Origin: Verrucomicrobiota bacterium
Lineage (GTDB): Bacteria; Verrucomicrobiota; Kiritimatiellia; SS1-B-03-39; UBA6053
DNA: 38,804 bases
Assembly: GCA_020831625.1 (NCBI GenBank)
Contig: JAFIGD010000046.1
Span: 1 to 38,804 of the forward strand
Reading direction: 5' to 3'
Each line of letters starts with the position of its first letter. Position 1 is the stretch's first letter. The position numbers and the translations under genes were made by a program. Under the pieces are notes generated by a model that was not told the DNA's origin, made no database searches, and saw nothing but the letters and a program-made list of their open reading frames with translations. Below are positions 8,672-36,821 of the stretch, piece after piece.

Positions 8672-8684
8672 CCCCTCCGCCGCC

Positions 8685-10379
8685 ATGAAAACCCTGCTTG
8701 CTCTTTTTACCGCCTGTCTCCTCCTCCCGGTCTCCGCCCGGGTCTCCATGGAGGTTCGGCCGCGGGAGTTCACAACCGACGACACCGCCACCCTGACCCT
8801 CCGCATTCAGGGCGGTGTCGAGGGCACCCCCAACCTCACACTGCCCGAAGGGCTCACCATCGTCGGCACCTCCCGCAACGAGATGATCATCAACCGCTCC
8901 CGCGAAACCACCTTCAGCTTCACCTTTCAGGCCCGCGAAGCCGGCGACTACATCATCGGTCCCTTTTCCATGAACCTCGAAGGCCGCAATCATGTCGTGG
9001 AGGCGGTCCCGGTCACCGTCACGCAGGCCGAAGTCGTGCCTCCCTCCGACGACCTCATGATCCAACTCGAGGTCTCCCGCGACCGGGCCCTGGTGCAGCA
9101 GTCCCTCACCATCACCGCCACCTTCCTCAGCACCCGGCAAATCGACGACATTCAGCTTGCCGAGTTCGACACCTCCGGACTCGAAATCAGCGACTGGCAG
9201 GGCCAGCAGATCCGGGATCAGATCCTCGACGGCAAACACTACCGCGCCGCCCGCTTCTCCACCCGGGTCACCCCCGCCCGCGCCGGGGAATTCACCTTCG
9301 CGCCCGTCTTCCGGGTCACCGTCCTCGAACCCGAGGAGGACCTCACCCGCGGACGCATGGGCATGTTCACCCGCAACGTGCGGCGGCGGCAGGTGCGCAT
9401 CCAGCCCGAGCCGGTCGTCTTTGAAGCCCGCAATCCGCCCACAGAAGGCCGTCCCCGCGATTTCGACGGCGCGGTCGGCACCTTCACCTTCCAGGCCTCC
9501 GCCTCGCCCCAGGCCCTGAATGTCGGCGAACCCCTCACCCTCCGCACCCAAATCAACGGCTCCGGTAATATCCGCACCCTGCTCCCGCCCTCTCTGGAGG
9601 AAAGCGACGATTTCCGAGTCTTCAGCCCCCGCCTGGTCGAGGAGGATATGGCGCGCGACGGCCAAAGCGGCCGCAAAACCGTCGAGCAGGTCATCATTCC
9701 CCGGCACGCGGAAGTCACCGAAATCCCCGAACTGCGGTTCAGCTTTTTCGATCCCGACCGCTGGGAGTACGTCACCCGTACCGCCGGACCCTTTGCACTG
9801 GAGGTCCGTCCCGCCCCCGAAGGCGCGATGCCCGCCCTCACCACCGGAGCCGGAGCCCTGCGCCTCAATGTCGGCCCCACCCTCCTCGGACAGGATCTGG
9901 TCTACCTCAAGAGTGATCCCGGAACGATCCGCCCGCTTCACAGCATGTCCCCGGTCGCGTTTTCTCTCTGGTCCTCCCTGCCCCTGGCCGCCTGGGCCTT
10001 GTTCGGATGGACCCACCACCGCAAACAAACCCTTTTATCCAACCCCACCCTGGCCAAGCGCCAAAACGCCCCCCGCAACCTCCGCAAAAACCTCGAAAAA
10101 CTGCATGCCGCCTCCGCCGCCGACATTCACGAGGCCATCTGGCAGTGCCTCACCGAATACCTTGGCCACCGCTTTCAACTTCCGCCCGGCGACATTCAAT
10201 CCGATTCCCTGAAAACGCATCTGGACGGACAGCTTTCCGCAGAAACTATCGCCACCCTCGAAACCTGGCTTCAACGCTGCGAACGCGCCCGCTTTGCCGG
10301 CCAAGCGAACGCCGATGCGGGGAGTCTCGCCAAAGAGTTCGAATCCGTGATGCTCGCCCTCAACAAGGAGGCCTCATGA
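8685..10379 (+). CDS. batD: BatD-like oxygen-tolerance protein
   Basis: A 564-residue envelope protein of the BatD (oxygen tolerance) family. A signal peptide (MKTLLALFTACLLLPVSA) is followed by several beta-sandwich domains whose repeated features include the DTATLTLRIQGGVEGTPNL opening. A membrane helix (about residues 425-443, PVAFSLWSSLPLAAWALFGW) precedes a ~120-residue cytoplasmic helical region. The ATG at 8685 lies 13 bp after the previous stop, and the stop overlaps the next ATG. BatD is thought to cooperate with BatA and BatB in the inner membrane; its chemistry is unknown. The length is normal for the family. Confidence 0.88.
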   Translation: MKTLLALFTACLLLPVSARVSMEVRPREFTTDDTATLTLRIQGGVEGTPNLTLPEGLTIVGTSRNEMIINRSRETTFSFTFQAREAGDYIIGPFSMNLEGRNHVVEAVPVTVTQAEVVPPSDDLMIQLEVSRDRALVQQSLTITATFLSTRQIDDIQLAEFDTSGLEISDWQGQQIRDQILDGKHYRAARFSTRVTPARAGEFTFAPVFRVTVLEPEEDLTRGRMGMFTRNVRRRQVRIQPEPVVFEARNPPTEGRPRDFDGAVGTFTFQASASPQALNVGEPLTLRTQINGSGNIRTLLPPSLEESDDFRVFSPRLVEEDMARDGQSGRKTVEQVIIPRHAEVTEIPELRFSFFDPDRWEYVTRTAGPFALEVRPAPEGAMPALTTGAGALRLNVGPTLLGQDLVYLKSDPGTIRPLHSMSPVAFSLWSSLPLAAWALFGWTHHRKQTLLSNPTLAKRQNAPRNLRKNLEKLHAASAADIHEAIWQCLTEYLGHRFQLPPGDIQSDSLKTHLDGQLSAETIATLETWLQRCERARFAGQANADAGSLAKEFESVMLALNKEAS

Positions 10380-11089
10380 AAACGCTGCTGCTGTTGCTTC
10401 TGCTTCCCTTGCTCTGCCTCGGTGCCGACTGGACCGGGGCAATGGACGCCTTTGACCGGGGCGAATTTAAACAGGCCTACGACCTGTTTTCCGGTCTGCG
10501 CACCGACACCGCCACCTCCGCCGCCCTCGAATACAATCTCGGCAACAGCGCCTTCCGCATGGGACAGCCCGATCTCGCCCTTGCCCACTACCGCCGCGCC
10601 CTCTGGCTGTCCCCGAACGAACCCGACCTCACCGCCAACCTCAACCGCGCCCTGGATCTCCTCGGAGCCGAATGGCCCGAACTCCCCCTGTCCCGCCGCA
10701 TCAGCGCCCCCCTCTCCCACAGCACCTGGACCGCGCTCTGGTTCACACTGCTCACCCTCACCGCCCTCTACGGAGCCCTCACCCGCCTGTCCCCGCCGCT
10801 GCGCCACGCGCAGGCCTGGGTCTACCCCCTCGCCTTCACCCTGCTGGCAGCCGCCCTGTGGGGACGATGGGCCGGCTCCCCGCAGCGCATGCGCCACGAA
10901 GGTGTCCTGATCGGACAGGAGATCACCGCCCGCTTCGAACCCGTCGAAAGCAGCACCCGCCACTTTTCCCTCCCCGGCGGCAGCGTCGTCCACATCCAGG
11001 ATCAAACCCGCCAATGGGTCCGCATCCGCAGCAACGACACCTCCGGCTGGATCCACCGTGACGAGATTGTCCCTATTCTACAACCGTAA
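10376..11089 (+). CDS. batE: BatE-like TPR and SH3-domain protein
   Basis: A 237-residue exported protein with a signal peptide (MKTLLLLLLLPLLCLG). It has a TPR pair (about residues 20-90; FDRGEFKQAYDLF, YNLGNSAFRMGQPDLALAHYRRAL), two central hydrophobic helices (about 122-140 and 148-165) and a C-terminal bacterial SH3-like domain (about 175-235, ending QWVRIRSNDTSGWIHRDEI). This is the BatE arrangement and it closes the operon. The last 17 bp overlap the 3' end of the convergent GH78 gene (11073-11089), so there is no room for a separate terminator. Confidence 0.87.
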   Translation: MKTLLLLLLLPLLCLGADWTGAMDAFDRGEFKQAYDLFSGLRTDTATSAALEYNLGNSAFRMGQPDLALAHYRRALWLSPNEPDLTANLNRALDLLGAEWPELPLSRRISAPLSHSTWTALWFTLLTLTALYGALTRLSPPLRHAQAWVYPLAFTLLAAALWGRWAGSPQRMRHEGVLIGQEITARFEPVESSTRHFSLPGGSVVHIQDQTRQWVRIRSNDTSGWIHRDEIVPILQP

Positions 11090-13490
11090 ACGCATTCAGC
11101 CCGCCCTGTAAATGCCGGCGGGTGCTTTCATAAACAAATTCCCCCGTGAGAGTACCGGGGAGGTCAATGCGGACATTCATCTGACCGTCACGCCGGATGT
11201 ATTCACACGTCAGTGCCCCTTCCGGATGCGGGAGCGAAAGCCGGATGTGTTTCAGATGTCCCGGCATCGGGGCAATCCGGACGGTGCGGAACCCCGGGGA
11301 GGCGGGGCGGATGCCGGCGATACCGGCGAAAAAATGAAACAGGGGATGCGCGCCCCAGCCGTGACAATCGGAGCGCGACGGCTCCGGCCGCTCGGGCGTG
11401 GTGTGAAACCCCTGTTTTTTCAGGGCGGTCCAAAACCTAAGCCGGTCGAAAAAGGCGCCTTCCTCTCCGCCCCCGTACAGGGCCTCAAGTCCGTAGTGGG
11501 AAAAATAAATCGACATCGGCGCCAGCGACACTTCTCCGGAAAGCCACGCACGCAGGCAGGCCTTGCCCTCCGTCCCGGTCAGAATCCCGCTCTCCAGGCT
11601 CCAGACCTGCGCGTGCTCGGAAAAATAGCGGTGTGACGAATCGTCGGCCATCAGGTGCACATCCGAAGACCAGTATTTTGCTTTAATCCGTTGGTTCAAC
11701 CTTTCACGAAATCCGGAAATCCAGGGGATCAGGCCTTCTTCTCCGCAGGCGGCCTCCACCTCCGCCCAGGCCCGCAGGGCCCGGGAAAGATGCAGATTCG
11801 CCAGCGAGGAATCCCCTTCCCGCACGCCGGGGCCGCATCCGCTGTCCCACTCCGGAACCCAGTCCACAAAGGACCAGCCCGGCACCTGATGTATCAGGCA
11901 GTCCTCCCCCAGCCAGGCCAGACATTCATGCATCATCGCCCGAATTCCCGGCAGCAGGGTCCGTACAAACGCCTCGTCCCGCCGCCAGTAGGCATAGTCC
12001 CGGACCAGACAGGGGTACAACATGGAATACGTGAACGAGTCCTGTCGAATCGACGAGGGATAGCGCTCCGCCACCCATCCGTTCTCATGTCGGGACCAGT
12101 CAAACAGTTCCAGCGAACGCCGGGTCAGCGCGTCATCCCGGGTCAGACAATACCCTGCAAGCGCGGTGTTGGTGTGATCCCCCACATAAGACAACTGCTC
12201 ATAATAGGGACAATCCACCCACTGCTCATGGGCGCAATGTTTCAAGCCCCCGAGGAGAATCGGCCACAAGGCGTTCAGGGCTTCATCCTCACAGGTGAAC
12301 GTCCCCTCTTCCTGAAACGGAAATCCGGTCCGGCGCACCGCGAAACGCTCCAGGCGAAGCGGCGAATCACCCGTCCGCACGATCAACCGCAAAAACCGGC
12401 CCGACCGCCACCAGAAAGCAGGCGGACGCTGCCCGGTCTCACCGTTCAGCCGCCATCCATCCCCGAAGCCGTGAAAGACCTTGTCAATGAAAACATCGCG
12501 CTGACCCTTCGGGGTATCGGACCGGACCTCATATCCTGAGGCGGCATCGAAGAGGCTTTCCGCCCATTCAAGTCTCAGCTCCGACTGCCGGCCCCCGGAA
12601 ACGGTCATCTCCGGATACCCGCACACATACTCTCCCATATCGATCAGACACTCCGCCTCACACCCCGCAGGCATCACCAGTGCCGACTCTTCTCCGGAGA
12701 AGAAAGTGCGCAGTCCCCTGTACATCGGATCGGAAGGCTCCGGCCCGGACCAGGGCCCATCGTTTAGGCCCAGCCGAAAGGAACAGAGACGAAAGCGTTT
12801 GAAGAGATCGCGGCGCTGCTCCGGCAATCGCGTGGGATGCATCCGCCAGCCCCGCGGGCGCGCGCCATGGCGTTCCGGCACCTCCGGCCTGCGAAGCACC
12901 GACAGCGGCACAGGCTCACGCACCCGCCCCCAGGCCTCCAGATCGGTGATGAATTCAGGCCCCACCACATGAAATCCGCACAAAGACGGTCTGACGCACT
13001 TCACCGCGTCCGACACATCCTCACAACGCCACTCCGCTATGCCGGTGGTCAGCTCCCTATCCAGCACTCCCTCACCTTTCACAATCACCCCCGGACGGCA
13101 GGTGCATTGCGCCAGGGGCGCCAGTGTTTCCGGCAGCCACCACACGCGCAGCTCCACGCGCAAATCCGCACCGTCGGTTTCAAGCGCATATCCGGCGACC
13201 GACCAGTGCGGGAGGTCGGACCGGTCCGGTCCCTTCCCCTGAAATTCGCCATTGATCCAAAGCTGATACCGCTGATCGGCAGAAAGGTAAAACCGGTGTT
13301 TTCCCGCCGGGACCCGGATCTCCCGCGTCAACCGCAGAAAAACCGGGCGCTTGACATCCCACGTCTCCGGCCCCACCCAGGCGGCCTGCTCAATCGGCAG
13401 ATCCGCCCGCATTCCCGCCCAAAGCGGATGACGGTCGAGGGCCTTGGTTGAAAAACGGTTAATCTTCATAAGGGTAAAAGCATCAATCAT
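11073..13490 (-). CDS. GH78-family alpha-L-rhamnosidase-like protein
   Basis: A large (805-residue from this start) glycoside hydrolase resembling GH78, enzymes that release terminal alpha-L-rhamnose from plant, algal or bacterial glycans. An N-terminal beta-sandwich (RFYLSADQRYQLWINGEFQGKGP) leads to the (alpha/alpha)6 barrel. The barrel holds the family motif VDCPYYEQLSYVGD, in which E431 is the likely catalytic acid, and a later CHGWGAHPLFHF motif before the C-terminal beta domain. No signal peptide is visible, so the enzyme is probably cytoplasmic and acts on imported oligosaccharides. The start is uncertain: ATG 13490 and ATG 13469 are both possible, neither with a clean Shine-Dalgarno, and the frame is open to a TTG at 13517. 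An operator copy lies ~60 bp upstream, and the gene is divergent from the GH28 gene. Confidence 0.85.
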   Translation of the reverse strand: MIDAFTLMKINRFSTKALDRHPLWAGMRADLPIEQAAWVGPETWDVKRPVFLRLTREIRVPAGKHRFYLSADQRYQLWINGEFQGKGPDRSDLPHWSVAGYALETDGADLRVELRVWWLPETLAPLAQCTCRPGVIVKGEGVLDRELTTGIAEWRCEDVSDAVKCVRPSLCGFHVVGPEFITDLEAWGRVREPVPLSVLRRPEVPERHGARPRGWRMHPTRLPEQRRDLFKRFRLCSFRLGLNDGPWSGPEPSDPMYRGLRTFFSGEESALVMPAGCEAECLIDMGEYVCGYPEMTVSGGRQSELRLEWAESLFDAASGYEVRSDTPKGQRDVFIDKVFHGFGDGWRLNGETGQRPPAFWWRSGRFLRLIVRTGDSPLRLERFAVRRTGFPFQEEGTFTCEDEALNALWPILLGGLKHCAHEQWVDCPYYEQLSYVGDHTNTALAGYCLTRDDALTRRSLELFDWSRHENGWVAERYPSSIRQDSFTYSMLYPCLVRDYAYWRRDEAFVRTLLPGIRAMMHECLAWLGEDCLIHQVPGWSFVDWVPEWDSGCGPGVREGDSSLANLHLSRALRAWAEVEAACGEEGLIPWISGFRERLNQRIKAKYWSSDVHLMADDSSHRYFSEHAQVWSLESGILTGTEGKACLRAWLSGEVSLAPMSIYFSHYGLEALYGGGEEGAFFDRLRFWTALKKQGFHTTPERPEPSRSDCHGWGAHPLFHFFAGIAGIRPASPGFRTVRIAPMPGHLKHIRLSLPHPEGALTCEYIRRDGQMNVRIDLPGTLTGEFVYESTRRHLQGGLNAFTVVE

Positions 13491-13539
13491 CTCTTCAGGT
13501 AAATCATCATATATCAAAAGCGATCTCTAACCGGCAGCT

Positions 13540-13664: not shown

Positions 13665-14960
13665 ATGCAAATTCATCTTCCGCCGAATTCCAATCCTGAC
13701 GTTCTAAGCACCGCCGTTCTCCAGGAAGCCATCAACACCTGTGCCGCCCGGGGCGGTGGCACGGTTTACCTTGAGCCCGGTCTGCACCGCAGCGGTTCCC
13801 TGCAGCTGAAATCAAACATCACCCTGCATCTTGAAGCCGGAGCGGTTCTGGAGGGCTCTGAAGATTTAAACGACTACCCGCCGGTGCCGTTTCATCACAA
13901 CGAATTTCCAGTGACCCGCTCGCTGGTCTGGGCCATGGGCGAACAGAACATTGCCATCACCGGCTTCGGGCGAATCGACTTCAAAGGCTCCACCTTCATG
14001 AAACTCGACACCCCCGACACCCGAGGTCCGGGCGGCGAAGAGATCCACACCCTTCCCGAAGCCCTGCAACGGGAGGCGGTGGTGGTGGCGAATGACCGCC
14101 CCACGCAGCCGATTTTTCTGCACGAATGCACCCGCGTCCGCGTGGATAACCTCGAGTTGGTGGACGCCTCCTGCTGGACCCTCACCCTGAGCTGTTGCGA
14201 AGACGCGCAGGTGCGGGGCATCCGTGTGCGTAATTCGCTGGTGGTGCCCAACTGCGACGGGGTCAACATCAGCGCCAGCCGCAACGTGATTGTGACCGGC
14301 TGCACGTTTCACTGCGCCGACGACTGCGTGGCCGTGGTCGGCATCACCTGCTGGGACCGGCCCGCGGAGAATATCGTCATTTCCGACTGCACCATGGTCT
14401 CCCGCTCCTGCGGGGTTCGCATCGGACACCTCGCGAGTCAGGTGCGAAACGTGCATCTGCACCACCTCATCCTCTCCGAGGGCAACCGCGGCATCGGCAT
14501 CTTCGCGGGCGATGGCGGGCTCGTCGAAATGATTCACGCTGATCACCTGATCCTCCACACCCATCTGTACGCCGGGTTCTGGTGGGGAAAAGGCGAACCA
14601 CTGATCCTCTCCGCGGCAGACAGCACCGGCATTATTCGCAACGTGCGCGTTACGGAGGTCACCGCTTTCAGCGAAGGCCCTATTGTTCTGGCAGGAAACG
14701 ACAACAACGTCACCGGTATCGCCCTGGAGGACTGGGATCTGACTCTGGTGCCGAGCGCAAAACGGGAACACCTTGGCAACTGGCTCGATCTCCAACCCGC
14801 CGCCTGCCGTCCCCTTGAGGCAAAGCAATTCCCCTGGCTGGTTCAAGTGGGCGTGGAGGATGTTTCACTAAAGGGAATACGCTTGGACACAAAGCAGGCG
14901 CAAGCAGCGGGATACGGGGTCGGCCTGTTTTCCGAATGTCGGAAACTGATATGTTCTTGA
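13665..14960 (+). CDS. GH28-like pectinase-fold glycosidase
   Basis: A 431-residue right-handed beta-helix enzyme of the GH28 (polygalacturonase/rhamnogalacturonase) type. The opening TAVLQEAINTCAARGGGTVYLEPG is typical of the fold. The catalytic aspartates appear as NCDGVNIS (D198) and ADDC (D219, D220). The family's GHG histidine is represented by RIGH (H255), but the usual RIK motif is not obvious. The exact substrate is therefore uncertain; uronic acid or rhamnose-uronate linkages are likely. There is no signal peptide, so it is probably cytoplasmic. AAGG at about 13652-13655 may serve as a Shine-Dalgarno with a long spacer. It is the first gene of a four-gene + strand operon that ends at 18841. 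Confidence 0.85.
   Translation: MQIHLPPNSNPDVLSTAVLQEAINTCAARGGGTVYLEPGLHRSGSLQLKSNITLHLEAGAVLEGSEDLNDYPPVPFHHNEFPVTRSLVWAMGEQNIAITGFGRIDFKGSTFMKLDTPDTRGPGGEEIHTLPEALQREAVVVANDRPTQPIFLHECTRVRVDNLELVDASCWTLTLSCCEDAQVRGIRVRNSLVVPNCDGVNISASRNVIVTGCTFHCADDCVAVVGITCWDRPAENIVISDCTMVSRSCGVRIGHLASQVRNVHLHHLILSEGNRGIGIFAGDGGLVEMIHADHLILHTHLYAGFWWGKGEPLILSAADSTGIIRNVRVTEVTAFSEGPIVLAGNDNNVTGIALEDWDLTLVPSAKREHLGNWLDLQPAACRPLEAKQFPWLVQVGVEDVSLKGIRLDTKQAQAAGYGVGLFSECRKLICS
14945..14954 (+). promoter_or_regulatory. Weak operator-like site inside the GH28 3' end
   Basis: ACTGATATGT keeps the 8-bp core (CTGATATG) of the shared element. It lies in the last codons of the GH28 gene, 34 bp before the GH94 start. 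It may be chance or an internal control site. Confidence 0.3.
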
Positions 14961-14987
14961 ATCTGCGCATTTGCCCCTTTGCTTTTC

Positions 14988-17336
14988 ATGCCGTTTAATA
15001 GGCTAATGCATCAAGAACCCACTCCTTTCGGCGCGTTTGTCGAGAACTCGGCGGCCTTCCGCGTGACGAATCCGGCCACACCCCGCGCCTTTGACAACTT
15101 TCTCTGGAACGATGCGGTCATGTCCTGCGTCCAACAGACCGGCACCGGCACCCTGGATATTCAGCCCGGCAAAGAACAGGCCATCCAGGTGTTCACCGGC
15201 GTGGGGCGCGTGTGCGATATCGAGGCCTTCGGCCGCGACCACCTGATGAGCCGCCTGATCTACATCCGCGACAATGCCACCGGGAACTTCTGGAACGCGG
15301 GCTGGGAACCGGTCCGGGCTGAATATACACGCTATGCCTGCGAGCACGGACTGGGCTACACGCGCATCGAATCGGAAACCAACGGCATCGCCGCCTCGCT
15401 GCTGATCGTGGTTCCGCCGGGGGATGCCCCGGTGGAACAGTGGCGGCTAGAACTCCGCAACCGCTCTGACAGCGCCCGCGACCTCACGGTTTTCGCCTAC
15501 AATCAATATCAGCTCGGCTACAAGTGGGGCTTTGAAAGCTACGGCGACATGCTCTACCGCGGGGCCTGGTTTGATGAGGCCGTGCAGGGGATGATCATCC
15601 AGAAACACCCCTATGTCGCTCCCCATGCACACCTGACCGCCTTTTTCGGGGCAGACCGCATGCCCGACGGTCATGACGGCAGCCGCCGTCTCTTTGTCGG
15701 GGACTATGCCACCCTCGCCGCACCGGAGGCCGTCGTCAACGGCGCCTGCACCAACACCGCCGGCTCCTGCGAAGCCACCGTCGCCGTATTGCAGTTTAAT
15801 ATAATGCTTGATCCCGGTAAAGCCGATGCGGTCGAGTTTGTAAACGGACTCACCGATTCAGAGAAAAACGCCGCCGCCTTGTGTCAACAGTTTGCGGGAA
15901 CCGCGCTTAAGGCCCTGGAGGCAGTCAATGCCGGGGCCCAACGCCGACACGACCGCAACACCGTGACCACCCCCGACCCGCAGTTCAACCGTCTGATGAA
16001 CGACTGGCTGAAACAGCAGACACTCTTTGGCGCCACCTGGTGCCGCTGGGGATACATGGGCTATCGCGACATCGTGCAGCACGGCATGGGCATCTGCTCC
16101 TTCGCGCCGGAGCGCACCCGAGAAATTCTCATCGAGGCCTGCGCCCACATGAACTCCGACGGCATGGCTCTGCGCGGCTGGAATCCGGTGGACACCAAAC
16201 CCTACAGCGACAGCACCCTCTGGCTCGTCTACACCCTCACCGCTTATCTCAAGGAAACCGGCGATTTCGGAATTCTGGAGGAAACCGTTCCCTGGTTCGA
16301 CGGCGGGGAAGCCTCTCTGCTGGAACATATCGAAACTGCGATGCAGACCCTGGAGGACAACAAAGGGGCCCACGGACTTTGTCTCATCCGCTTCGGCGAC
16401 TGGAATGATTCGCTCACCAACATCGGCCGAGAAGGCAAAGGCGAAAGCGTCTGGCTGTCCATGGCCTATGTCCACGCCATGGATCTGCTGCAGGAACTCT
16501 TCACCTTCCGAATGGAGGAGAACCGCGCCTACACCTGCGGACAACGTGCAGAAACCATGCGGGAGGCCCTGAAAAATCAGGCATGGGACGGCAACTGGTT
16601 TGTGCGCTGCTTTGATGACCGCGGCGAGCCCGTGGGATCGCTGCGGAATGACGAGGGAAAGCTTTATCTCAATCCGCAGAGCTGGGCGCTGATCACCGGA
16701 ATCGCCGACGAAACGCAGCGTGAACAAATGCTGGCGGCCTGCCGCGAACATCTGCTCACGCCGGCGGGATACCGGCTGCTTCACCCGCCCTACCTCAAGC
16801 GGAACGACCACATCGGCCGCATAAGCTATCTCGAACCCGGCATCTGCGAAAACGGCACCGTCTATTCCCACGTGAACGCCTTTTTGTTTTTGGCGCAACT
16901 CAAAGAAGGCATGGGCGACGAGGCCTACGAGACCTTCCGCCGGCTCAGCCCCGGCTATGCTGGATCCGATAACAGCCCCAAACACAATATCCCTCCCTAC
17001 GTGTATGCCAACGGCTACTATGCTCCCGAACACCGCAACAATCCGCTGCAGGCCGAATTCACCTGGGTCACCGGCTCGGCGGCCTGGTGGCTCGAGGCGG
17101 CCATGGAGCATATGATCGGGGTTCAGCGCGGCTACGACGCTCTGATCATTCAACCCGCCCTCCCCACCGGTTGGGATGACGTAACCCTGAAACGAAGTTT
17201 CCGCGGCAAAGTCTTTCACATCACCCTGAAGCGAACCGGCCGTCCGGGTCTGCGCTTAAACGGAAAACCCATACAAGATCCACGGATTTCACTTGAAGTC
17301 TGTGAACCTGAGAACAGCATTGAGGTGACCCTATGA
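14988..17336 (+). CDS. GH94-like glycoside phosphorylase
   Basis: A protein of about 782 residues resembling GH94 (cellobiose/chitobiose-type phosphorylases), which split a disaccharide with inorganic phosphate to give a sugar 1-phosphate and thereby save ATP. It begins with the beta-sandwich motif YxFVTNPxTPR-like (AAFRVTNPATPR). It carries RFGDWNDS in the (alpha/alpha)6 barrel, whose D471 corresponds to the general acid of the family, then the late region SWALITGIAD and the FTWVTGSAAWW motif that precedes the C-terminal domain. No signal peptide is present, which fits a cytosolic phosphorylase. The start could also be ATG 15006. The specificity cannot be read from sequence; the company of GH28 and GH78 suggests a uronate or rhamnose disaccharide. 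The stop overlaps the next ATG. Confidence 0.83.
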   Translation: MPFNRLMHQEPTPFGAFVENSAAFRVTNPATPRAFDNFLWNDAVMSCVQQTGTGTLDIQPGKEQAIQVFTGVGRVCDIEAFGRDHLMSRLIYIRDNATGNFWNAGWEPVRAEYTRYACEHGLGYTRIESETNGIAASLLIVVPPGDAPVEQWRLELRNRSDSARDLTVFAYNQYQLGYKWGFESYGDMLYRGAWFDEAVQGMIIQKHPYVAPHAHLTAFFGADRMPDGHDGSRRLFVGDYATLAAPEAVVNGACTNTAGSCEATVAVLQFNIMLDPGKADAVEFVNGLTDSEKNAAALCQQFAGTALKALEAVNAGAQRRHDRNTVTTPDPQFNRLMNDWLKQQTLFGATWCRWGYMGYRDIVQHGMGICSFAPERTREILIEACAHMNSDGMALRGWNPVDTKPYSDSTLWLVYTLTAYLKETGDFGILEETVPWFDGGEASLLEHIETAMQTLEDNKGAHGLCLIRFGDWNDSLTNIGREGKGESVWLSMAYVHAMDLLQELFTFRMEENRAYTCGQRAETMREALKNQAWDGNWFVRCFDDRGEPVGSLRNDEGKLYLNPQSWALITGIADETQREQMLAACREHLLTPAGYRLLHPPYLKRNDHIGRISYLEPGICENGTVYSHVNAFLFLAQLKEGMGDEAYETFRRLSPGYAGSDNSPKHNIPPYVYANGYYAPEHRNNPLQAEFTWVTGSAAWWLEAAMEHMIGVQRGYDALIIQPALPTGWDDVTLKRSFRGKVFHITLKRTGRPGLRLNGKPIQDPRISLEVCEPENSIEVTL

Positions 17337-18157
17337 CCTACCCCACATCACATCAACCTGCGCACAAATGTAGCCGTGGATTTACGCTCATTGAGATGCT
17401 GGTGGTGATCACGATCATCATCATTCTTGCATCCCTCCTGCAACCGGGCATTCAGAACGCTCTGGAGCGGGGACGCCTGGCGGGTTGCATGAGCAATCTA
17501 CGCCAGCAGGGGATCGCGGTGATGGCCTTCGCGGCCGAAAACAACCAGAGTCTGCCGACCCATCAGTCCCGCCCGGCATCCGGGCATAACCGTTGGGGGC
17601 ACGAGAATATTGGGTGGGAACAGGCATTGATCCGATATCTCGACGATTCTGAACCTGGTGATGCGAACGAGGCCACAGGAAACGCGGCGTTTATCTGTCC
17701 CTCCAGCAGCATCCGATGGAATTCCGGCACCCGCAGATATCTGCACCGGGGTGTCGTGTCCGGGGCCTCCAGCAATGCCTACTCCGGACTGTATTATAAT
17801 TATCAGGCGTCCCCCTTAAACACCGATCGCGCCAATCCGAATCCCTCCCTGTTACGAATGAATTTTTATGCGCGGCCGTCCTCACAGCCCTTGCAGTGGT
17901 GTTCCCAGCGTTTTTCAACAGATCCAACCATTCCCTACAACACCAATACCCTTGCGGCACTCAGCTGGCATCCCCGGGGGCGGCCCACCCTGTTTATGGA
18001 TGGAAGCGCTCTCCTGCTCACCCGTTCAATTCACAACACCCTCGGGGAACAGGTCATGGTGAGGGCAAACCATCCCGACAATATAAATCACAGTGCCGAG
18101 ATGGGGGTTTGGGGAAATGCGGGTGCCTTCAGTTTACGTCTCAGGGAGGAACTCTGA
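17333..18157 (+). CDS. H-X9-DG pseudopilin-like protein
   Basis: A 274-residue protein with a type IV prepilin N-terminus: a short basic leader, then G/FTLIEML with the conserved glutamate at position 5 of the mature chain and a long hydrophobic helix (VVITIIIILASLL). The C-terminal part carries the H-x9-DG motif (HPRGRPTLFMDG) typical of the numerous PVC-phylum pseudopilins. It is translationally coupled to the GH94 gene (ATGA overlap), with GAGGTGA as Shine-Dalgarno. A pilB-type ATPase lies 19 kb away in the window and may serve the same type II-like secretion apparatus. The reason for a pseudopilin inside a glycosidase operon is not known; it may help secrete or display glycan-active proteins. 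Confidence 0.85.
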   Translation: MTYPTSHQPAHKCSRGFTLIEMLVVITIIIILASLLQPGIQNALERGRLAGCMSNLRQQGIAVMAFAAENNQSLPTHQSRPASGHNRWGHENIGWEQALIRYLDDSEPGDANEATGNAAFICPSSSIRWNSGTRRYLHRGVVSGASSNAYSGLYYNYQASPLNTDRANPNPSLLRMNFYARPSSQPLQWCSQRFSTDPTIPYNTNTLAALSWHPRGRPTLFMDGSALLLTRSIHNTLGEQVMVRANHPDNINHSAEMGVWGNAGAFSLRLREEL

Positions 18158-18160
18158 GCC

Positions 18161-18841
18161 ATGTTCACACTCCTCCTGATGCTCTTTTTGCTTCTCTCCC
18201 TTGGAGTTCTTCTTTTCCTGAAGTCTAAACCGGGGCTCAAACCTGTTGCCTTTGCACTTCCCGTCATCGCCTTGCTGCTTTTCATGTTCCGGCCGGCCCC
18301 CTCAACCAACCGGCGCCCGCAGACCGACCGCAGATTTCAGCAGGAGCTGGCCCGGATCACCGGAAGCCATCTGGCCATGTCGTTAACATCGCATTTGCCT
18401 TCCCGAAGTTCTGTGTTGATCCTTCACCCGGAGAGGCGTTCACACGTGTTTCAACAAATTCAAGGCCGGCATTTTCTGGCGGGAATCGAAAGCGGCCTTG
18501 AAACGCACGCAGGTGCGGTCCACGTGTTTCCGGTTCAAGAAGAGCTTTATATAAACACCCAAACCCTGCGTCGGGCTCTATCGCAATATGAGGGTGTGAA
18601 CGGCCTGATCCTGATCGGCATGCAAATCATGGCAGATCCTGATCTGCGCTCCTTATCCTTGCCGCCCATGGTGCTCAGCGACCTCGGCGATCCGGGCAGC
18701 TCGGAATGGGCCCTGCAAAACGGCGTTGCGAAGGCGGCGCTCTTTAGCAAAGACTCCGCTGAACAGCTCCCCGAAAGGCCCGGCCCGGAGGCATACTTCA
18801 CCTCGCGGTATGAAATCCGAACCGTCTCCGATTTGCAATGA
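18161..18841 (+). CDS. Membrane-anchored protein of unknown function
   Basis: A 226-residue protein I do not recognise. Two hydrophobic helices (about residues 2-20 and 26-44) are followed by a ~170-residue soluble domain. Its alternating beta and alpha pattern (SSVLILHPERR, VHVFPVQEE, GLILIGMQI, PMVLSDLGDP) suggests a Rossmann-like or periplasmic-binding-like fold. It starts 3 bp after the pseudopilin stop, with AGGGAGGA a little upstream, so the two are probably co-translated and may form a unit. A sensor or assembly partner for the pseudopilin are both possible. The next gene is convergent, with only 27 bp between and no evident terminator. Confidence 0.75.
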   Translation: MFTLLLMLFLLLSLGVLLFLKSKPGLKPVAFALPVIALLLFMFRPAPSTNRRPQTDRRFQQELARITGSHLAMSLTSHLPSRSSVLILHPERRSHVFQQIQGRHFLAGIESGLETHAGAVHVFPVQEELYINTQTLRRALSQYEGVNGLILIGMQIMADPDLRSLSLPPMVLSDLGDPGSSEWALQNGVAKAALFSKDSAEQLPERPGPEAYFTSRYEIRTVSDLQ

Positions 18842-18868: not shown

Positions 18869-21586
18869 TCAGTCGTCAAACCGGACGATTCCCCAGTGCC
18901 GGGGGCCGGCGAGGAGTTTGTCGTCTTTGGTGTCCGGCCAGGCCGCACGGAGATTCATCAGGGTCGGAGTTCCGTTTTGCATGGACAACGCCATGCGCCA
19001 CGTTTCCCCAGCCCGGGGAACAGCGCCCAGCACTTCTGCAGGGACAAATGCACTCAGCATGAGTTTGCCGTCTTCATGCGTGACGTGTGAGCGCACCTCC
19101 GGATGATCCTGGATGTTCCCCGCGCCGGGATGGGTCCGTCCGCGCCATTGGCCCACCCATCCGCGCCAACCGCCCGGGGCAGGCACCGGCTGCAGCCAAA
19201 AGTGGCGGTCAATCGAAGCCCATTCATCCGGTCCCTCAGCGTCGGGCCGAACAAACCATTCCATGTTTTGTGCCGTCCAAAACCATTCGGGGTCGAGGTC
19301 ATACACCGTATCCGCCGAAAACCGCACCGCCAGATACAGCCCTTTCGGCGACCAGGCCACCGCCGCTTCGGGAGCCATCCGGTCCACATGCAACCAGGTC
19401 GCGTTCCAGCGGGCTTCTTCCGGCCACGCCTCCCATCCGTCTTCCAGTGAAAGCGTGTCCACACGCGGCACCGACACCTGCGCCGGACGCAGCCAGACGG
19501 TTTGCCGGCCCCCTCCGTCCAGGAGCAGATTGAGCGGGACAGGTCCGGAAGCGTTGCTCAGTGCGGCAAACTGAACCTCCACCGACCCGCCGGTTCCCAG
19601 TTCCCAGGTGGAGGGGGTAACCGTCCCCAGAGCCGGATCCACCTCCACCCTTCCGCTCGCCGGGGTTCCGCGGCTGCGCGCAAGCGTGACCGGCGTAGCC
19701 TGCCCCGGATGGTAAGCGGGAGCCTCAACGCTCAACGCCGGTTGAACATACACCCGAACCGGCCACGTCCGTTCCCATCCCCCGCCTTCAGCCACAAGCG
19801 AAAGCGTATAGGCCCCGGGGTCCAGACTCAGGCGCGGTCTAACCGATACCGTCCATTCATCCGGTCCCTTCACAATGGAAACACCCCAATCCTCCGCAGC
19901 CGCGTCCAAACGGACGGTGTGAGCTTGCCCCGCCGGATCTTCAAGCACCCATTCCACCGTGTCCTCCACCGGAACATGCTGAATCCGGTGTGACGTGAAC
20001 GCCACCCGCCGCATCGCCTCCCATGATGCCGGCCACGCATCAAAATGGTAATAGGCCACGGTGTCCTTCAGCACCGTGCCCGCTTCGATCGCATTTCCGT
20101 ATTGATCATAGGCCCGCCGGGCCTGGCGCAGTGCCTCCGGGGCAGGATGCTCCCCCTCCACCGCCCAGACCGTTGCCACCCCGCCGCCCGACGGCCGGTC
20201 CCATAAGAGACACCAAATGTCTGGATGTCCCAAATCAATAGTGCCTCCGTGTTCCGTGGCCGCAGTCTGCGCCGACAGCGCCGCAAGAGTCGCCGCGCTG
20301 GGCCGCAACATCCCCTGCGGATCAATAATGCCACTGGAGGCAAAACGGATGGGTCCCTCATCGACATCCCGGTCATAAAACCAGAAAATTTTATCCACCC
20401 CCGCCCAACGGGACAGCAGATAGATGCGCGGCAGCCAGACCGCCTGCAGGCGTTCGCCGACCGCCGGTCCGTAGTGGACATCCCAGCCCGTCTCCGTAAT
20501 CCACACCTCATGTCCCCGCGCCTTGAACATGCGCACATAGTCCCGGATACGGTCCAGCACCAGGGAGTCATTCGACCTTCGCTCCCCGCCCACATTAGTG
20601 TCGCGCCTGGCCTTTTCAGGCGCCACGGTTCCCGTGTAAATATGAATGCATGAAGCCCAGAAATCGTCGGGATCCGTCAGGGCCAACACCTCTTTCATCG
20701 CCTCCGGATACATAAACTGGTCACCCGCCAGCACCAGGCGTTGTCCCCGACCCGCCTGGCGGAGTCCGGCACTGGCGGCCCGGATGAATTGGGAATAATT
20801 CTTTGGATCATGCACATGACCCGGGAAAAAGGTCTCCTCTTCATTCCCGGCCTGGAACCACCCCTTGTCCGGAAAATGATTTCCGATGCGCATAAAGGTT
20901 TCCTGCACTTGACCGGGGTCGTCCATCCAGCGTTGCCGGTCCCCGGTAACGAACACCTTCTGAATACAGGGCAGCGTCAAGACGCCTGCGGCGCGGGCCG
21001 CATCCAGGCGCTTCAGAAAGTCCTCGCCCTGCGGGGTCGTGGTGCCGTGGTTCCCCCGCCCGTACCAGCCCCAGACATAGTCACGCGCCCAGTGAATGCC
21101 CAGACGCGCGAATAAGTCCCAGTCCGCCCACTGGTGGGTGTTGATCCCGACAAAAGAACGCATCCGTTCCGCCTCCGTTCGCGGCGGCATCGGGAGAATC
21201 CGCACCATGCGCTGCAAGGCCTCGGCAAGCACCGCCCCGTCCGCGGCACGCTCCAGACGAGCCTCCAGCACAAAGCCCCCGAATGCCGTCAGACGCAGCG
21301 TCCGCTCCTCCGTCCAGACCTCCTGGCCTGCAGGGACCGACACATCCCGCAAATCCCAGTCCGACACCTCCGCCCCGTCGGCGGTCACCAGCCGCTGGCG
21401 GAGCCGGTATTCTCCAGAGGATGGGGTCTCAATCCGAAACCGGACCCGCACATTCCCCGCATCATCCGCAAGGCCGCGCGGACTCAGCATCTCAACCTCC
21501 AACCCGGTCTGCGCAAACGCGCCCGCGCCCACGCCAAACGAACACACAAGCAACAAGACTTCAAACACACGGGATTTTAAAAACAT
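18869..21586 (-). CDS. Large secreted clan-A-like glycoside hydrolase with C-terminal CBM9-like domain
   Basis: A 905-residue exported protein. A signal peptide (MFLKSRVFEVLLLVCSFG, ending AFAQ) is followed by a beta-sandwich (to ~130) and a TIM barrel (~140-470) that opens FVGINTHQWAD. The likely acid/base is in QAGNEE (E249) and the nucleophile in WITETGWD (E365), the spacing expected of clan GH-A retaining enzymes. Beta domains follow, then a C-terminal region that resembles a CBM9-like module (AAVAWSPKGLYLAVRFSAD, WRMALSMQNG). It is distantly related to the two proteins encoded next door. The start is chosen at the ATG with AGGAG seven bases upstream. The operator at 21671-21680 lies 85 bp upstream. 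The substrate is unknown; no exact GH family is claimed. Confidence 0.8.
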   Translation of the reverse strand: MFLKSRVFEVLLLVCSFGVGAGAFAQTGLEVEMLSPRGLADDAGNVRVRFRIETPSSGEYRLRQRLVTADGAEVSDWDLRDVSVPAGQEVWTEERTLRLTAFGGFVLEARLERAADGAVLAEALQRMVRILPMPPRTEAERMRSFVGINTHQWADWDLFARLGIHWARDYVWGWYGRGNHGTTTPQGEDFLKRLDAARAAGVLTLPCIQKVFVTGDRQRWMDDPGQVQETFMRIGNHFPDKGWFQAGNEEETFFPGHVHDPKNYSQFIRAASAGLRQAGRGQRLVLAGDQFMYPEAMKEVLALTDPDDFWASCIHIYTGTVAPEKARRDTNVGGERRSNDSLVLDRIRDYVRMFKARGHEVWITETGWDVHYGPAVGERLQAVWLPRIYLLSRWAGVDKIFWFYDRDVDEGPIRFASSGIIDPQGMLRPSAATLAALSAQTAATEHGGTIDLGHPDIWCLLWDRPSGGGVATVWAVEGEHPAPEALRQARRAYDQYGNAIEAGTVLKDTVAYYHFDAWPASWEAMRRVAFTSHRIQHVPVEDTVEWVLEDPAGQAHTVRLDAAAEDWGVSIVKGPDEWTVSVRPRLSLDPGAYTLSLVAEGGGWERTWPVRVYVQPALSVEAPAYHPGQATPVTLARSRGTPASGRVEVDPALGTVTPSTWELGTGGSVEVQFAALSNASGPVPLNLLLDGGGRQTVWLRPAQVSVPRVDTLSLEDGWEAWPEEARWNATWLHVDRMAPEAAVAWSPKGLYLAVRFSADTVYDLDPEWFWTAQNMEWFVRPDAEGPDEWASIDRHFWLQPVPAPGGWRGWVGQWRGRTHPGAGNIQDHPEVRSHVTHEDGKLMLSAFVPAEVLGAVPRAGETWRMALSMQNGTPTLMNLRAAWPDTKDDKLLAGPRHWGIVRFDD

Positions 21587-21670
21587 TACCAATCTCCTGA
21601 ACGGGTTCCATAATAGACTTGATCAAGCGAAGCACCCCAGGGCGCACACGTCAAACCAAGCCACGAATCA

Positions 21671-21715: not shown

Positions 21716-24709
21716 CTACTCCACTTCTACAAGCGTGAGCCAGTGGATATGCGCCATGCCTTCGACGCCGAGGATAAGGGTTTGCGCTTCCGCAAGCTCA
21801 ATCTCCAGCCCTATCGTGGTGGCTTCACGGGGAGTATCGGGCACAACGTGAATGGCGATCTGCTCTCCGTCAACATTCAGAGTGAGCGTTTCCCGCTCGC
21901 CCATGGGGGCGGCACTAAGTTCAAGGCGGTAGCGGCCCGGATCCACGTTAAAGCGGAAGGTCTGACCGTTCCGGAAGCGCACGGAGTCGCGGTTCAGCGG
22001 ACCGGGAATCCAGTGTTTGTCTTCGTTCAACATGGCGGCGGGTTGAAAGCCGTGACCCTTGTCCGCGTCATACAGATCGTCGTGCAGCACCGGAGTGAAG
22101 GTCCGCACATCGCCAAGGGTGAGGGTGCCGACAAACTCACGCCCTCCGAAATCGAAAAGATAGACTTGGCGCTCCTGATCGCGGGCCATGCGGGCCTGAC
22201 GAGCAGCTTCGCGGGCCTGTGCGGCCTCGGCCCGGCGCTGCCACTCCGCCGGCAGGGTCTCCAGAGCCACATAACGGGGAAAAGGCGTCAGGGTCACCCG
22301 CTCTCCCGCCGCAACCGTGGTTTTGGCGCTGAAAGAATCCGTAACCTCACCGGCGCCGAAATCCAGTTCGGCGGTGCCGGTGACGGTCCAGGCGGTTAGG
22401 AGGGGTTTGCCGTTGCGCTGCCAGAGGTAGACCCAGACATCCGGGTTGTCAGTGAGCAGCCGCAGCGCGCGTCCGGGGCCCACGCCCTCGAATTCGCGAA
22501 TGAGGGTGGCGTAGGTGAAGTAGGCGGGGCGCAGCGAGTGATCATTCCGCGCCAGTCCCGCGCCGGCGTGCATCGACTCGGTGCTGCCGCTTTCGCGGTA
22601 GATGAAGACCTTGTCCACGCCGGCGGCCAGGAGCAGGAGGGTCACCCGCGGAAGTTTCATGGCCTGTTCCCGTTCACCCAAACCGATGGGGCCGCCGACA
22701 TCGTAGCCGGTTTCGGTGATCCAGACTTCTTTGTCCGGTGCATGGCGGTTCCGCCAGTCGGTAAGTTCGCGAATGCGTTCGGGAAAGGTGGGCATGCCCT
22801 CGATGGGACGCCCGGATCGGTTGGCGTTGGGATCCCGGGTGGCGACTTCGGGGTCCTGCCTTCCACTGTAGTAATGCACGGTGATGAGGTCGGTGAAGTC
22901 CAGCGGCGTTTTTCCGTCCGCGTAGGTATGGGTGCGCAGCTCATTGACGAGGCTGACCCCGATGCCGGCGTAGCCCGCGTGGGCGACCCTTGCCCCGGGG
23001 TCGGCCCGCTTCACGCCCTCGGCCCCCTGCCGGAAGAGTTCATAGTACTGGGCCATGCTTCCCACCCAGGGAGCCCAGGTCGGGCCGACCAGATTGGGCT
23101 CGTTCCACAACTGGAAGACGGAGATCTGACCCAGCCCCGTCGTTTTGTCAGGCGTGCGCAGCGTGTCCTCGGGCACCGCCCGGGACCCGTAGCGCGCGGC
23201 GAGCTGATAAATGGCCTCGCCGTAATCCGCATAATCGTTGGGCGGCCAGGAATGGCGGTTTCGGGTCACATCCGCCGGAGCGGAGGTGGACCAGGCCGGG
23301 ACCTGGAAGGTGTAGGGCAGCACCTGCATGCCTCGCTTGTGATATTCCTCCACAAACACATCGTGCCGCACATGCCATGGCGCGATGGAGCCGTCGAAGG
23401 CAAAATGGTCCGGCGCATTGCTGAACATCTGCCATTTCATATTTTCAAACCGGATCCAGCCGACGCCAAGCCGGCGGTTGATGTCAAAAAAGTCAAACGA
23501 GGAGGCGTTCATGCCGAAGCGGGAATCATCCGGCAGGGTTTCGAGGATGCGCGGGAGGGTGAAATGGCTGCGGGACAGGATCTGTCGGAACCCGTCTCCC
23601 TCCACCCGCGCCTCCATCAGATAAGCACCCGGATCGATCTTCACAACAGGAAGCGCGGCCCAGACAAACGCGCCGGCGGGCACCTCCAACTCCAGCGTGC
23701 CCTCTCGGAGAGCGGGGCCGAGCTCCGCAAAGGCAAAATCCTCATCGCGGACGCCCTCGAAAACCCGGAGCTGCTGCGGCAGCCTCAGGAAATTCAGAGA
23801 CTCCCCCTGTTTGTGGTAGCGCAGGCGGATAAAACGAGCCTTGAACGGAGTCGGGACCGACAGATTTTGCTCGCCCCATTTTTTGTGAAGGTCCAGATTT
23901 TGCAGTCCCGGGACCGGCGCGAAGCTCTCCCCGTCCTGCGAGGCTGCAATGTCCAAATTCCAGATCCAGTTGGCGTCCCCGGCGCGGTACTGCAGGTGGG
24001 TAATCCGACGGGATGCGCCAAGATCCACATAGTGAAACGCCTCGGTGTAGCCGGGGTCGTTGATACGGCGGTCCAAACCGGTGAAAGGGCTTCCGTCGGT
24101 GAGCGAGCCGTCATCAATTCGCTCCCCGTTGACCACAACCCAGCTCGTACAACCCCCGACGCGGTTCAAGCCGTGGACAGGATGGGGGATGTCGGGCTCA
24201 ATCCATTCCGGGTTGGAACCCAGCCGATACGTCACGTGCAGCCTGCGGGGGGCGTTGGTCGGGTTTTCCAGCAAAACCGCGGCCTGAAGGGCCTCGCCGG
24301 GCTCCACATCCGGCGCACCATGCAGGACGGCGCGCAGGGTTCGCTCCGCCTCCGGCAGGCGGGCGCGCCCCACCAGGGCATCCACGGTATGTACCCACAA
24401 GCCAACGGCGGTCAGCTCGCCCCGCAGTCCCGACACCAGCACAAAATCCCCTTTGCCGGAGTTGATTTGGGATTCGCCCTCAAACCGCAGCGCATGCGAG
24501 CCCAGTTTGGGTGCCGGATCGGCAACCGGCACCGCGCGGGCCCGCGTCATCCGCCAGGCACCCGTGTTGGGGATATCCCCGGCACTCAGCATCGGATTAA
24601 GCAGCCGCAGGGATTCGCCGGGCCGCGCCGTCAACACACTTCCCTGCGGCACGACCGCGCAGGCCAATGCCGCCCACATCATCAAAAAATAAACAAGGAG
24701 CTTCTTCAT
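21716..24709 (-). CDS. Very large secreted clan-A-like glycosidase with discoidin-like domain (paralogue 1)
   Basis: A 997-residue exported protein with the signal peptide MKKLLVYFLMMWAALACA. An N-terminal beta domain (~30-180) is followed by a discoidin/F5-F8-like carbohydrate-binding region (~190-320; HYVDLGASRRITHLQYRAGD, ARFIRLRYHKQG), a beta linker and a TIM barrel (~395-745). The barrel has acid/base WNEPN (E537) and nucleophile WITETGYD (E666). A helical spacer (~820-845, many Ala and Arg) leads to a C-terminal malectin-like module (VYLFDFGG; YRLELSAAP). It is a clear paralogue of the divergent gene at 26123-29359, including LFQ/TFQ-xP-W and AHAGYAG or ATAGFAG stretches. GAGAG precedes the ATG. 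The substrate is unknown. Confidence 0.82.
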   Translation of the reverse strand: MKKLLVYFLMMWAALACAVVPQGSVLTARPGESLRLLNPMLSAGDIPNTGAWRMTRARAVPVADPAPKLGSHALRFEGESQINSGKGDFVLVSGLRGELTAVGLWVHTVDALVGRARLPEAERTLRAVLHGAPDVEPGEALQAAVLLENPTNAPRRLHVTYRLGSNPEWIEPDIPHPVHGLNRVGGCTSWVVVNGERIDDGSLTDGSPFTGLDRRINDPGYTEAFHYVDLGASRRITHLQYRAGDANWIWNLDIAASQDGESFAPVPGLQNLDLHKKWGEQNLSVPTPFKARFIRLRYHKQGESLNFLRLPQQLRVFEGVRDEDFAFAELGPALREGTLELEVPAGAFVWAALPVVKIDPGAYLMEARVEGDGFRQILSRSHFTLPRILETLPDDSRFGMNASSFDFFDINRRLGVGWIRFENMKWQMFSNAPDHFAFDGSIAPWHVRHDVFVEEYHKRGMQVLPYTFQVPAWSTSAPADVTRNRHSWPPNDYADYGEAIYQLAARYGSRAVPEDTLRTPDKTTGLGQISVFQLWNEPNLVGPTWAPWVGSMAQYYELFRQGAEGVKRADPGARVAHAGYAGIGVSLVNELRTHTYADGKTPLDFTDLITVHYYSGRQDPEVATRDPNANRSGRPIEGMPTFPERIRELTDWRNRHAPDKEVWITETGYDVGGPIGLGEREQAMKLPRVTLLLLAAGVDKVFIYRESGSTESMHAGAGLARNDHSLRPAYFTYATLIREFEGVGPGRALRLLTDNPDVWVYLWQRNGKPLLTAWTVTGTAELDFGAGEVTDSFSAKTTVAAGERVTLTPFPRYVALETLPAEWQRRAEAAQAREAARQARMARDQERQVYLFDFGGREFVGTLTLGDVRTFTPVLHDDLYDADKGHGFQPAAMLNEDKHWIPGPLNRDSVRFRNGQTFRFNVDPGRYRLELSAAPMGERETLTLNVDGEQIAIHVVPDTPREATTIGLEIELAEAQTLILGVEGMAHIHWLTLVEVE

Positions 24710-24963: not shown

Positions 24964-25950
24964 TTATTTCCGCCAGCCGGGGGCAAGATACACGTTGGGC
25001 GACAGGAGGCGCTGCTTCGCGGCGGAGGAATCGCCGTTCCGCCGCTTCCGGTAGATGGCAATGACCGCCTCCGCGATTTCGCTCCAGGGTATGGTCAACG
25101 CCGTCACCCCTGCATCCACCGCCCGGGTCTCATCACCATAGGCCACCATCGGAAACTCCGCACCCAGTATCTTCCGCGCCACCTCCGCCGATGTGTTGTT
25201 GCCGCAGAAAAGACAGTCGAAATGCCCCTGCGCCTGCAGCCGCCGGAACGAATCCTCAAAATTCTCATCTTCCCAGTCCTCGGTGTATTCCACCGCCATC
25301 GGTTCCCATAAACTTTTAAATCCCTCCAGAAGATCCGGCCAGGTGTTCGGGGTGCCCATCATCACCGCCGGACACGTAAAGGCTCCGTTCTTTTTCAGGA
25401 GCTGCGCGGCGCTGACCCCGGCGGAATACAAATCAACCGAAATGCTGTCGGTGAAGACCGAATTCAATCCCGGCTGCGGCTTGCGGTCGATCAACACACT
25501 GTAATGCACCACATCTGGAATATCATGCAAATCGTAATGACCGCCCCAAATCACGCAAAACCGGTCCGGCGGATACTCCGTGAACGCGTCCGCATAGTCG
25601 ATCACATAATCAATTTTCTCCTCGTGCAAACGCTCCTCGAGCAATTCTCTCAGAATTGCACCGAAACGGCGTTCCTCTGTTTTAGACGTGCCATGCAGAA
25701 TCAGAGCCATTCCTTTGGGCGGATGCTTCTCCGAGGCGACATAGGTGCCGCTGGCTTCCGTGCGGTGCAAATACCCCTCGTCACACAACTCACGGATGAG
25801 CCCGTGCGCCGTCTGATAAGAGATCTTGTACCGGCCGGCCAGCTCACGGTTCGACAAAAACCAATTGCCGGGGCGGCGGTGCCCCTCTTTGATTTTTTCA
25901 ATTAAAAGGGCTTTGACCTGTTCAACTCGGGCGGTTCGTTTTTTGGGCAT
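24964..25950 (-). CDS. AraR-like transcription regulator (GntR helix-turn-helix plus LacI-type sensor)
   Basis: A 328-residue regulator. Residues ~5-73 form a GntR-type winged helix-turn-helix (SNRELAGRYKISYQTAHGLIRELCDEGYLHR, then the wing GTYV). The rest resembles a LacI/periplasmic-binding effector domain (MALILHGTS at ~80, YSVLIDRKP, AAQLLKKNGAF, FDCLFCGNNTSAEVARKIL, PMVAYGDETRAVDAGVTALTIPW). The combination is that of AraR and of many sugar regulators in PVC bacteria. It lies between two paralogous glycosidases. An exact operator copy (26023-26032) sits 73 bp upstream in the divergent promoter, so autoregulation is likely. The ligand is presumably a sugar released by the locus; activation or repression cannot be told from sequence. 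Confidence 0.87.
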   Translation of the reverse strand: MPKKRTARVEQVKALLIEKIKEGHRRPGNWFLSNRELAGRYKISYQTAHGLIRELCDEGYLHRTEASGTYVASEKHPPKGMALILHGTSKTEERRFGAILRELLEERLHEEKIDYVIDYADAFTEYPPDRFCVIWGGHYDLHDIPDVVHYSVLIDRKPQPGLNSVFTDSISVDLYSAGVSAAQLLKKNGAFTCPAVMMGTPNTWPDLLEGFKSLWEPMAVEYTEDWEDENFEDSFRRLQAQGHFDCLFCGNNTSAEVARKILGAEFPMVAYGDETRAVDAGVTALTIPWSEIAEAVIAIYRKRRNGDSSAAKQRLLSPNVYLAPGWRK

Positions 25951-36818: not shown

Positions 36819-36821
36819 TCA
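36816..36821. other. Shared stop palindrome TGATCA of two convergent genes
   Basis: The TGA of the rRNA methyltransferase (36816-36818) and the TGA of pilB on the minus strand (36819-36821) form TGATCA. There is no intergenic space and no terminator here. Confidence 0.9.

Follow-up and report, generated by a model that had tools for sequence, protein, structure and literature searches.

The sugar-binding proteins XylFII and LuxP work through contacts with membrane partners. Single lobes of a protein of this type are also on record: PMC9815098 describes engineered halves of ribose-binding protein that are stable alone and tend to dimerise. In planctomycetes, pili-like fibres and crateriform structures have been linked to polysaccharide (dextran) binding (PMC5394234). 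Pilins are unmentioned in the Pontiella and Kiritimatiellales papers that we checked. Here we report that a pseudopilin and a protein that we call half-PBP, a membrane hairpin followed by a single lobe, form a recurrent, conserved two-gene module. We found no description of this pair, or of the half-PBP family, in the open-access literature, and its novelty is accordingly provisional.

Operon and neighborhood

Open reading frames, strand and spacing mark out a same-strand operon of four genes, GH28, GH94, pseudopilin and half-PBP, at 13665-18841 (+) of the window, the whole stretch of 38,804 nucleotides analyzed here. The first gene (13665..14960, +) encodes a polygalacturonase-like enzyme, assigned from its sequence and from Pfam and NCBIfam matches: the Pfam GH28 profile is matched with an E of 4e-14 and 52.8 bits against a cutoff of 22.9, and the closest NCBIfam model is PglB, with a score under its cutoff. 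Because no signal peptide is visible in the product, the GH28 enzyme is probably cytoplasmic, as the GH94 enzyme probably is too. The open reading frame of the latter, a disaccharide phosphorylase, opens at 14979 and runs to 17336; it matches both GH94 Pfam domains, supersandwich and catalytic, far over the cutoff (E 2e-88 and 1e-43), and its nearest solved relatives are cellobiose phosphorylases (E 1.7e-95). Its frame is conserved with that of a congener, G002, only from the methionine at 15006 onward, and its true start is probably 15006 rather than 14988 (15006..17336, +).

The GH94 stop and the pilin start overlap by 4 bp (ATGA, 17333..17336, +), an overlap conserved in the congener, and the pseudopilin gene (17333..18157, +) ends 3 bp before the half-PBP gene (18161..18841, +) begins. 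At locus L039 of G002, GH94, pilin and half-PBP recur with identical -4/+3 bp junctions, at 73% identity for the pilin and about 50% for the half-PBP; given this recurrence, the arrangement is beyond chance. The initial annotation had described a tightly joined operon, which is right for these junctions, kept in G002, but not for GH28 and GH94: from a start at 15006 the gap between them is about 45 bp in the window and about 300 bp in G002, so that this junction is not tight.

Divergent from the operon, and adjoining it in G002 too, lies a gene for a GH78-like alpha-L-rhamnosidase (11073..13517, -). On the other side, a convergent gene (18869..21592, -), kept in G002, encodes a secreted protein of 907 aa with no Pfam match, and the nearest regulator gene, of the GntR family (24964..25950, -), is kept as well. 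Common to both genomes are therefore GH78, GH28, GH94, pilin, half-PBP, the convergent 900-aa protein and the GntR regulator; the gene at 21716-24709 is absent at that place in G002, where another gene is found instead. Elsewhere in the window, DUF58/VWA, VWA, BatD-like and TPR/SH3 genes at 3804-11089 make up a Bat operon of the aerotolerance type, left of the GH28 operon, and an alginate lyase gene (32350-33564, -) lies near a gene for a PEP-CTERM protein (31271-32017, +).

The half-PBP family

The last gene product, earlier described as being of unknown fold, can now be recognized by structure and sequence matches as a single lobe of the type I sugar-binding-protein fold. It has 226 aa, with a hairpin of two transmembrane helices at about residues 2-42 and the lobe at about residues 52-226, and its AF2 model, from a 38-row alignment, has a pLDDT of 88.6. 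Residues 52-226 align on the C-terminal lobe of RbsB (102-271), XylFII (117-290) and LuxP (154-349), with Z scores of 12-14.5 to these lobes and the highest, 14.5, to XylFII (rmsd 3.6 A over 151 residues). The best 50 structural entries are all sugar-binding-protein-like and align through the C-lobe, and complexes of XylFII and LuxP are among the matches. Sequence comparisons point the same way: Peripla_BP_4 is matched by 6 of 38 family members (best 2.8e-5), the family profile retrieves a true binding protein of full length, matched in its C-lobe, and binding proteins in the PDB are matched weakly by the half-PBP sequence in the same region. No credible Pfam name was obtained for family members apart from the six Peripla_BP_4 matches. 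Homology to type I periplasmic binding proteins was found for the C-lobe only; a second lobe, with a ligand cleft between the two, is missing from this hairpin plus one lobe, and the conserved residues are mostly structural (Gly, Pro and hydrophobic). Aminotransferases, which Foldseek rows had offered as relatives, were set aside, being absent from the top rows of a second structural alignment, with the sequence matches leading to binding proteins.

A search with the single protein returned one close and three distant relatives, and profiles, the last of them built from 38 members, then found half-PBPs in 32 of 288 genomes of the window's class and in 96 of 289 genomes of the phylum, corresponding to 59 of 153 sampled genera. 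As judged from sequence and predicted structure, this is a large bacterial family in which one half of a sugar-binding protein is fixed to the membrane. The loop between the two helices is net positive in 39 of 43 members, many others have a lipobox or a single helix in place of the hairpin, and anchor type changes at least 8 times on a tree of 81 half-PBPs. The positive-inside rule for the hairpin, and lipoprotein export for the lipobox, indicate that the lobe is probably periplasmic.

The pseudopilin and its pairing

The pseudopilin carries a class III prepilin motif, SRG/FTLIE (FTLIE being residues 17-21), and scores over the cutoffs for both N_methyl (31.7 bits) and DUF1559 (29.4 bits), the DUF1559/SBP_bac_10 match having an E of 1e-6. 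With the TIGR01710 equivalog model for GspG, the major pseudopilin of type II secretion, it reached 29.6 bits against a cutoff of 88.85. A literal H-X9-DG is present as H213-PRGRPTLFM-DG (D223, G224); H213, D223 and G224 are nearly invariant across 45 aligned partner pilins, while the strict pattern is matched by just 29 of 55. The model, itself of low confidence (pLDDT 67), predicts a long N-terminal helix and a C-terminal beta head, the head at low confidence, for which reason we propose no interface between pilin and half-PBP. Nothing significant came out of a fold search with it, the best entry being a type IVb pilus at E 0.13, and we accordingly assign the head no fold; among 58 relatives a clear orthologue of the head was seen only in the congener. 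There are 37 pilin genes in the window's genome, against 11 T2SSE-type matches, and 51 in a complete relative of 4.4 Mb, G008. One T2SSE-type match, a GspE/PilB-type assembly ATPase with an MshEN domain, is encoded at 36819-38543 (-) of the window, where the contig ends on the right, 18 kb from the pilin pair.

A same-strand pseudopilin lies within 150 bp of 55 of the 87 half-PBPs of the window's class, upstream in 32 cases and downstream in 23, with a 4-bp overlap in 16. Since the complete genome has just its 51 pilin genes, chance adjacency would amount to a few percent at most. Members of the class are not independent, so that changes on the tree matter rather than counts: on the tree of 81 half-PBPs, gene order changed at least 7 times with adjacency kept, and pairing changed at least 15 times. 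Distances between half-PBPs correlate with those between the heads of their partner pilins (r 0.70); when partners were shuffled within genomes r was 0.26 +/- 0.05, none of 2000 shuffles reaching 0.70, and with close homologues left out it was 0.36 against 0.14 shuffled. This co-divergence shows that the two are inherited as cognate pairs, even within genomes, and is not by itself proof of contact; together with adjacency it is also expected if both genes were simply copied together as a unit. The treatment of 17333 and 18161 as a linked pair in the initial annotation is thus borne out by adjacency across the class, co-divergence, and order switches that leave the two side by side.

The remaining 32 of the 87 half-PBPs have no same-strand adjacent pilin, and outside the window's class no pilin adjoined any half-PBP whose context was read. 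These unpaired genes, in and outside the class, imply that half-PBP has a function needing no adjacent pilin. Named genomes, most of them from other groups, supplied 80 pilin loci, gathered with the pilin alignment; of these, only that of Kiritimatiellaeota bacterium B1221 has a half-PBP, the pilin being followed after 2 bp by one of lipoprotein type, and none was near the planctomycete pilin loci examined. The window's class is accordingly likely to be Kiritimatiellia.

Several loci have layouts of their own. Three half-PBP and pilin pairs share one stretch of L137 (G001:C231, 1716-10316), two tandem pairs stand beside an HrpA-like helicase at L136 (G005:C5), and half-PBPs and pilins alternate at L053. 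One clade of pairs (L150, L156, L163) adjoins a secreted protein with a peptidase C39-like match in L150 and a look-alike in the others. Outside the class (L106, L109, L112, L113, L121, L122), half-PBP repeatedly lies about 105-120 bp downstream of a lipoprotein that resembles M28 peptidases by eye.

Glycan context of the pairs

Direct same-strand neighbors of pairs include GH94 (in the window and G002), sulfatase, GH9, GH29, GH78 and an acetyl-xylan-esterase-like gene, and the regulators and transporters adjoining them include three of LacI type in alike loci, others of XylR and AraC type, and a sodium:solute symporter. TatD, an HrpA-like helicase, pgk/gapdh-like genes and nameless proteins also occur as neighbors. 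With all queries, a glycan gene was found within 5 kb of 16 of 29 same-family pairs, a share that we rejected as a measure of enrichment because the queries came from pair loci and are biased; leave-one-out and independent queries were used instead. Of 22 non-redundant loci belonging to the window's family, 7 had a glycan gene within 5 kb by independent queries (random windows: 6%) and 8 by leave-one-out queries (random windows: 16%). The query set is small and these shares are lower bounds; with this limited set, 14-15 of the 22 loci had no glycan gene. Glycan matches per 10 kb numbered 0.41-0.56 at pair loci and 0.05-0.12 at random loci of the same genomes. An early reading of our own, that most pairs occur away from glycan loci, did not survive the neighbor scans.

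Glycan genes are overrepresented around the pair, which nevertheless also occurs elsewhere. The proposed link to glycan loci is upheld by the match densities, but the pair does not always travel with glycosidases: a glycan gene was seen at 7-8 of the 22 loci with the less biased queries, and other pairs lie by TatD, helicase or pgk/gapdh-like genes. Coupling of a pseudopilin to a phosphorylase had also been called unusual. In the window's genome, two tandem GH94 genes at L180 (G000:C69, 9500-18000) are followed after 144 bp by a pilin without half-PBP, and other unpaired pilins adjoin GH29, GH30, GH94, GH120-like, LacI and sulfatase genes; the window's genome thus makes a habit of combining pseudopilin and phosphorylase, and the window is no oddity in this. 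In G005, a GH94-like gene and a pair are arranged divergently. A LacI-like regulator lies opposite at L180. Overall, the initial reading is partly supported: the module is real and conserved, as a partnership of pilin and half-PBP, and these results lend no support to a surface assembly specific to glycosidases.

Proposed role and alternatives

We suggest that the last two genes of the operon are one copy of this module, in which both proteins would have inner-membrane anchors and be exposed to the periplasm. The half-PBP lobe may bind its own pseudopilin by the head, docking it to, holding it ready for, or regulating its entry into a shared machine, presumably type II secretion or type IV pilus-like and encoded elsewhere in the genome, to which each locus would supply its own pseudopilin. 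Made together with GH28 and GH94, the module would probably serve the uptake or handling of their oligosaccharide. We favor a docking or holding role because both products are predicted to face the periplasm at the inner membrane, the pair co-diverges, a ligand cleft is lacking, the conserved residues are mostly structural, and relatives contact membrane partners; our confidence in the whole proposal falls a little short of an even balance. The half-PBPs without an adjacent pilin count against it, as does the mostly structural nature of the conserved residues. More doubtful, though possible, is its extension to a natural family of single-lobe, membrane-tethered domains that would serve as dedicated pseudopilin partners and give one bacterial class many interchangeable pilin modules for shared machines, a sizeable share of these modules being dedicated to one glycan each.

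The main rival to docking is a sugar sensor, in which a single lobe or a dimer of lobes would bind a sugar or other small molecule and inform the pilin machine or a regulator. XylFII (with LytS) and LuxP, both binding proteins of the sensor type, are among the top structural matches; three genomes (L060, L064, L125) have a LacI-type regulator gene closely linked to half-PBP and pilin, with a 4-bp overlap and gaps of 6-9 bp between the three; and one pair follows an XylR-like regulator. We nevertheless consider a sensor unlikely, as the inter-lobe ligand cleft is missing and the conserved residues are mostly Gly, Pro and hydrophobic. At two of the three LacI-type loci, a gene that looks GH57-like by eye is divergent.

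We regard as similarly improbable the reading of the initial annotation, in which a surface structure specific to the glycan would be induced along with GH28 and GH94 and would capture or move that glycan: the overlap kept in the congener, the excess of glycan genes at pair loci over random ones and the dextran-binding fibres of planctomycetes (PMC5394234) are consistent with it, whereas most pairs have no recognizable glycan gene in the same operon and some stand beside housekeeping genes. Unrelated neighbors at many loci and the tandem arrays could instead be viewed as signs of a passenger pair, duplicated together and inserted by other loci, with no function shared mutually or with the glycosidases. 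The order switches with adjacency kept, the frequent 4-bp overlaps and the class-wide retention make this very unlikely.

The conserved, co-diverging partner offers a handle on the dozens of pseudopilin genes per genome (37-51 in two genomes), through which of them are paired, what the partner binds and whether each may be assigned a substrate. A natural family of single-lobe binding proteins also bears on the origin of the two-lobed ones.

Comparison with known systems

The planctomycete fibres (PMC5394234) are pilus-like structures linked to polysaccharide binding in the superphylum to which the window's genome also belongs; their protein was not identified there, and they are a precedent for contact between pilus and glycan rather than evidence for it here. 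To the type I periplasmic sugar-binding proteins (RbsB, XylFII, LuxP; Peripla_BP_4) the half-PBP is linked by fold and weak sequence similarity, in the C-terminal lobe only, and it differs from them in having one lobe, no inter-lobe cleft, and a hairpin or lipid that fixes it to the membrane; no ABC transporter genes were seen in its immediate surroundings. Compared with the engineered halves of ribose-binding protein, man-made and circularly permuted (PMC9815098), half-PBP is natural, membrane-tethered and paired with a pilin. The window's pilin itself shares the N-terminal prepilin motif, the DUF1559 match and the H...DG residues with the DUF1559 / H-X9-DG pseudopilins of PVC bacteria, from which it is set apart by its divergent head and its partner half-PBP.
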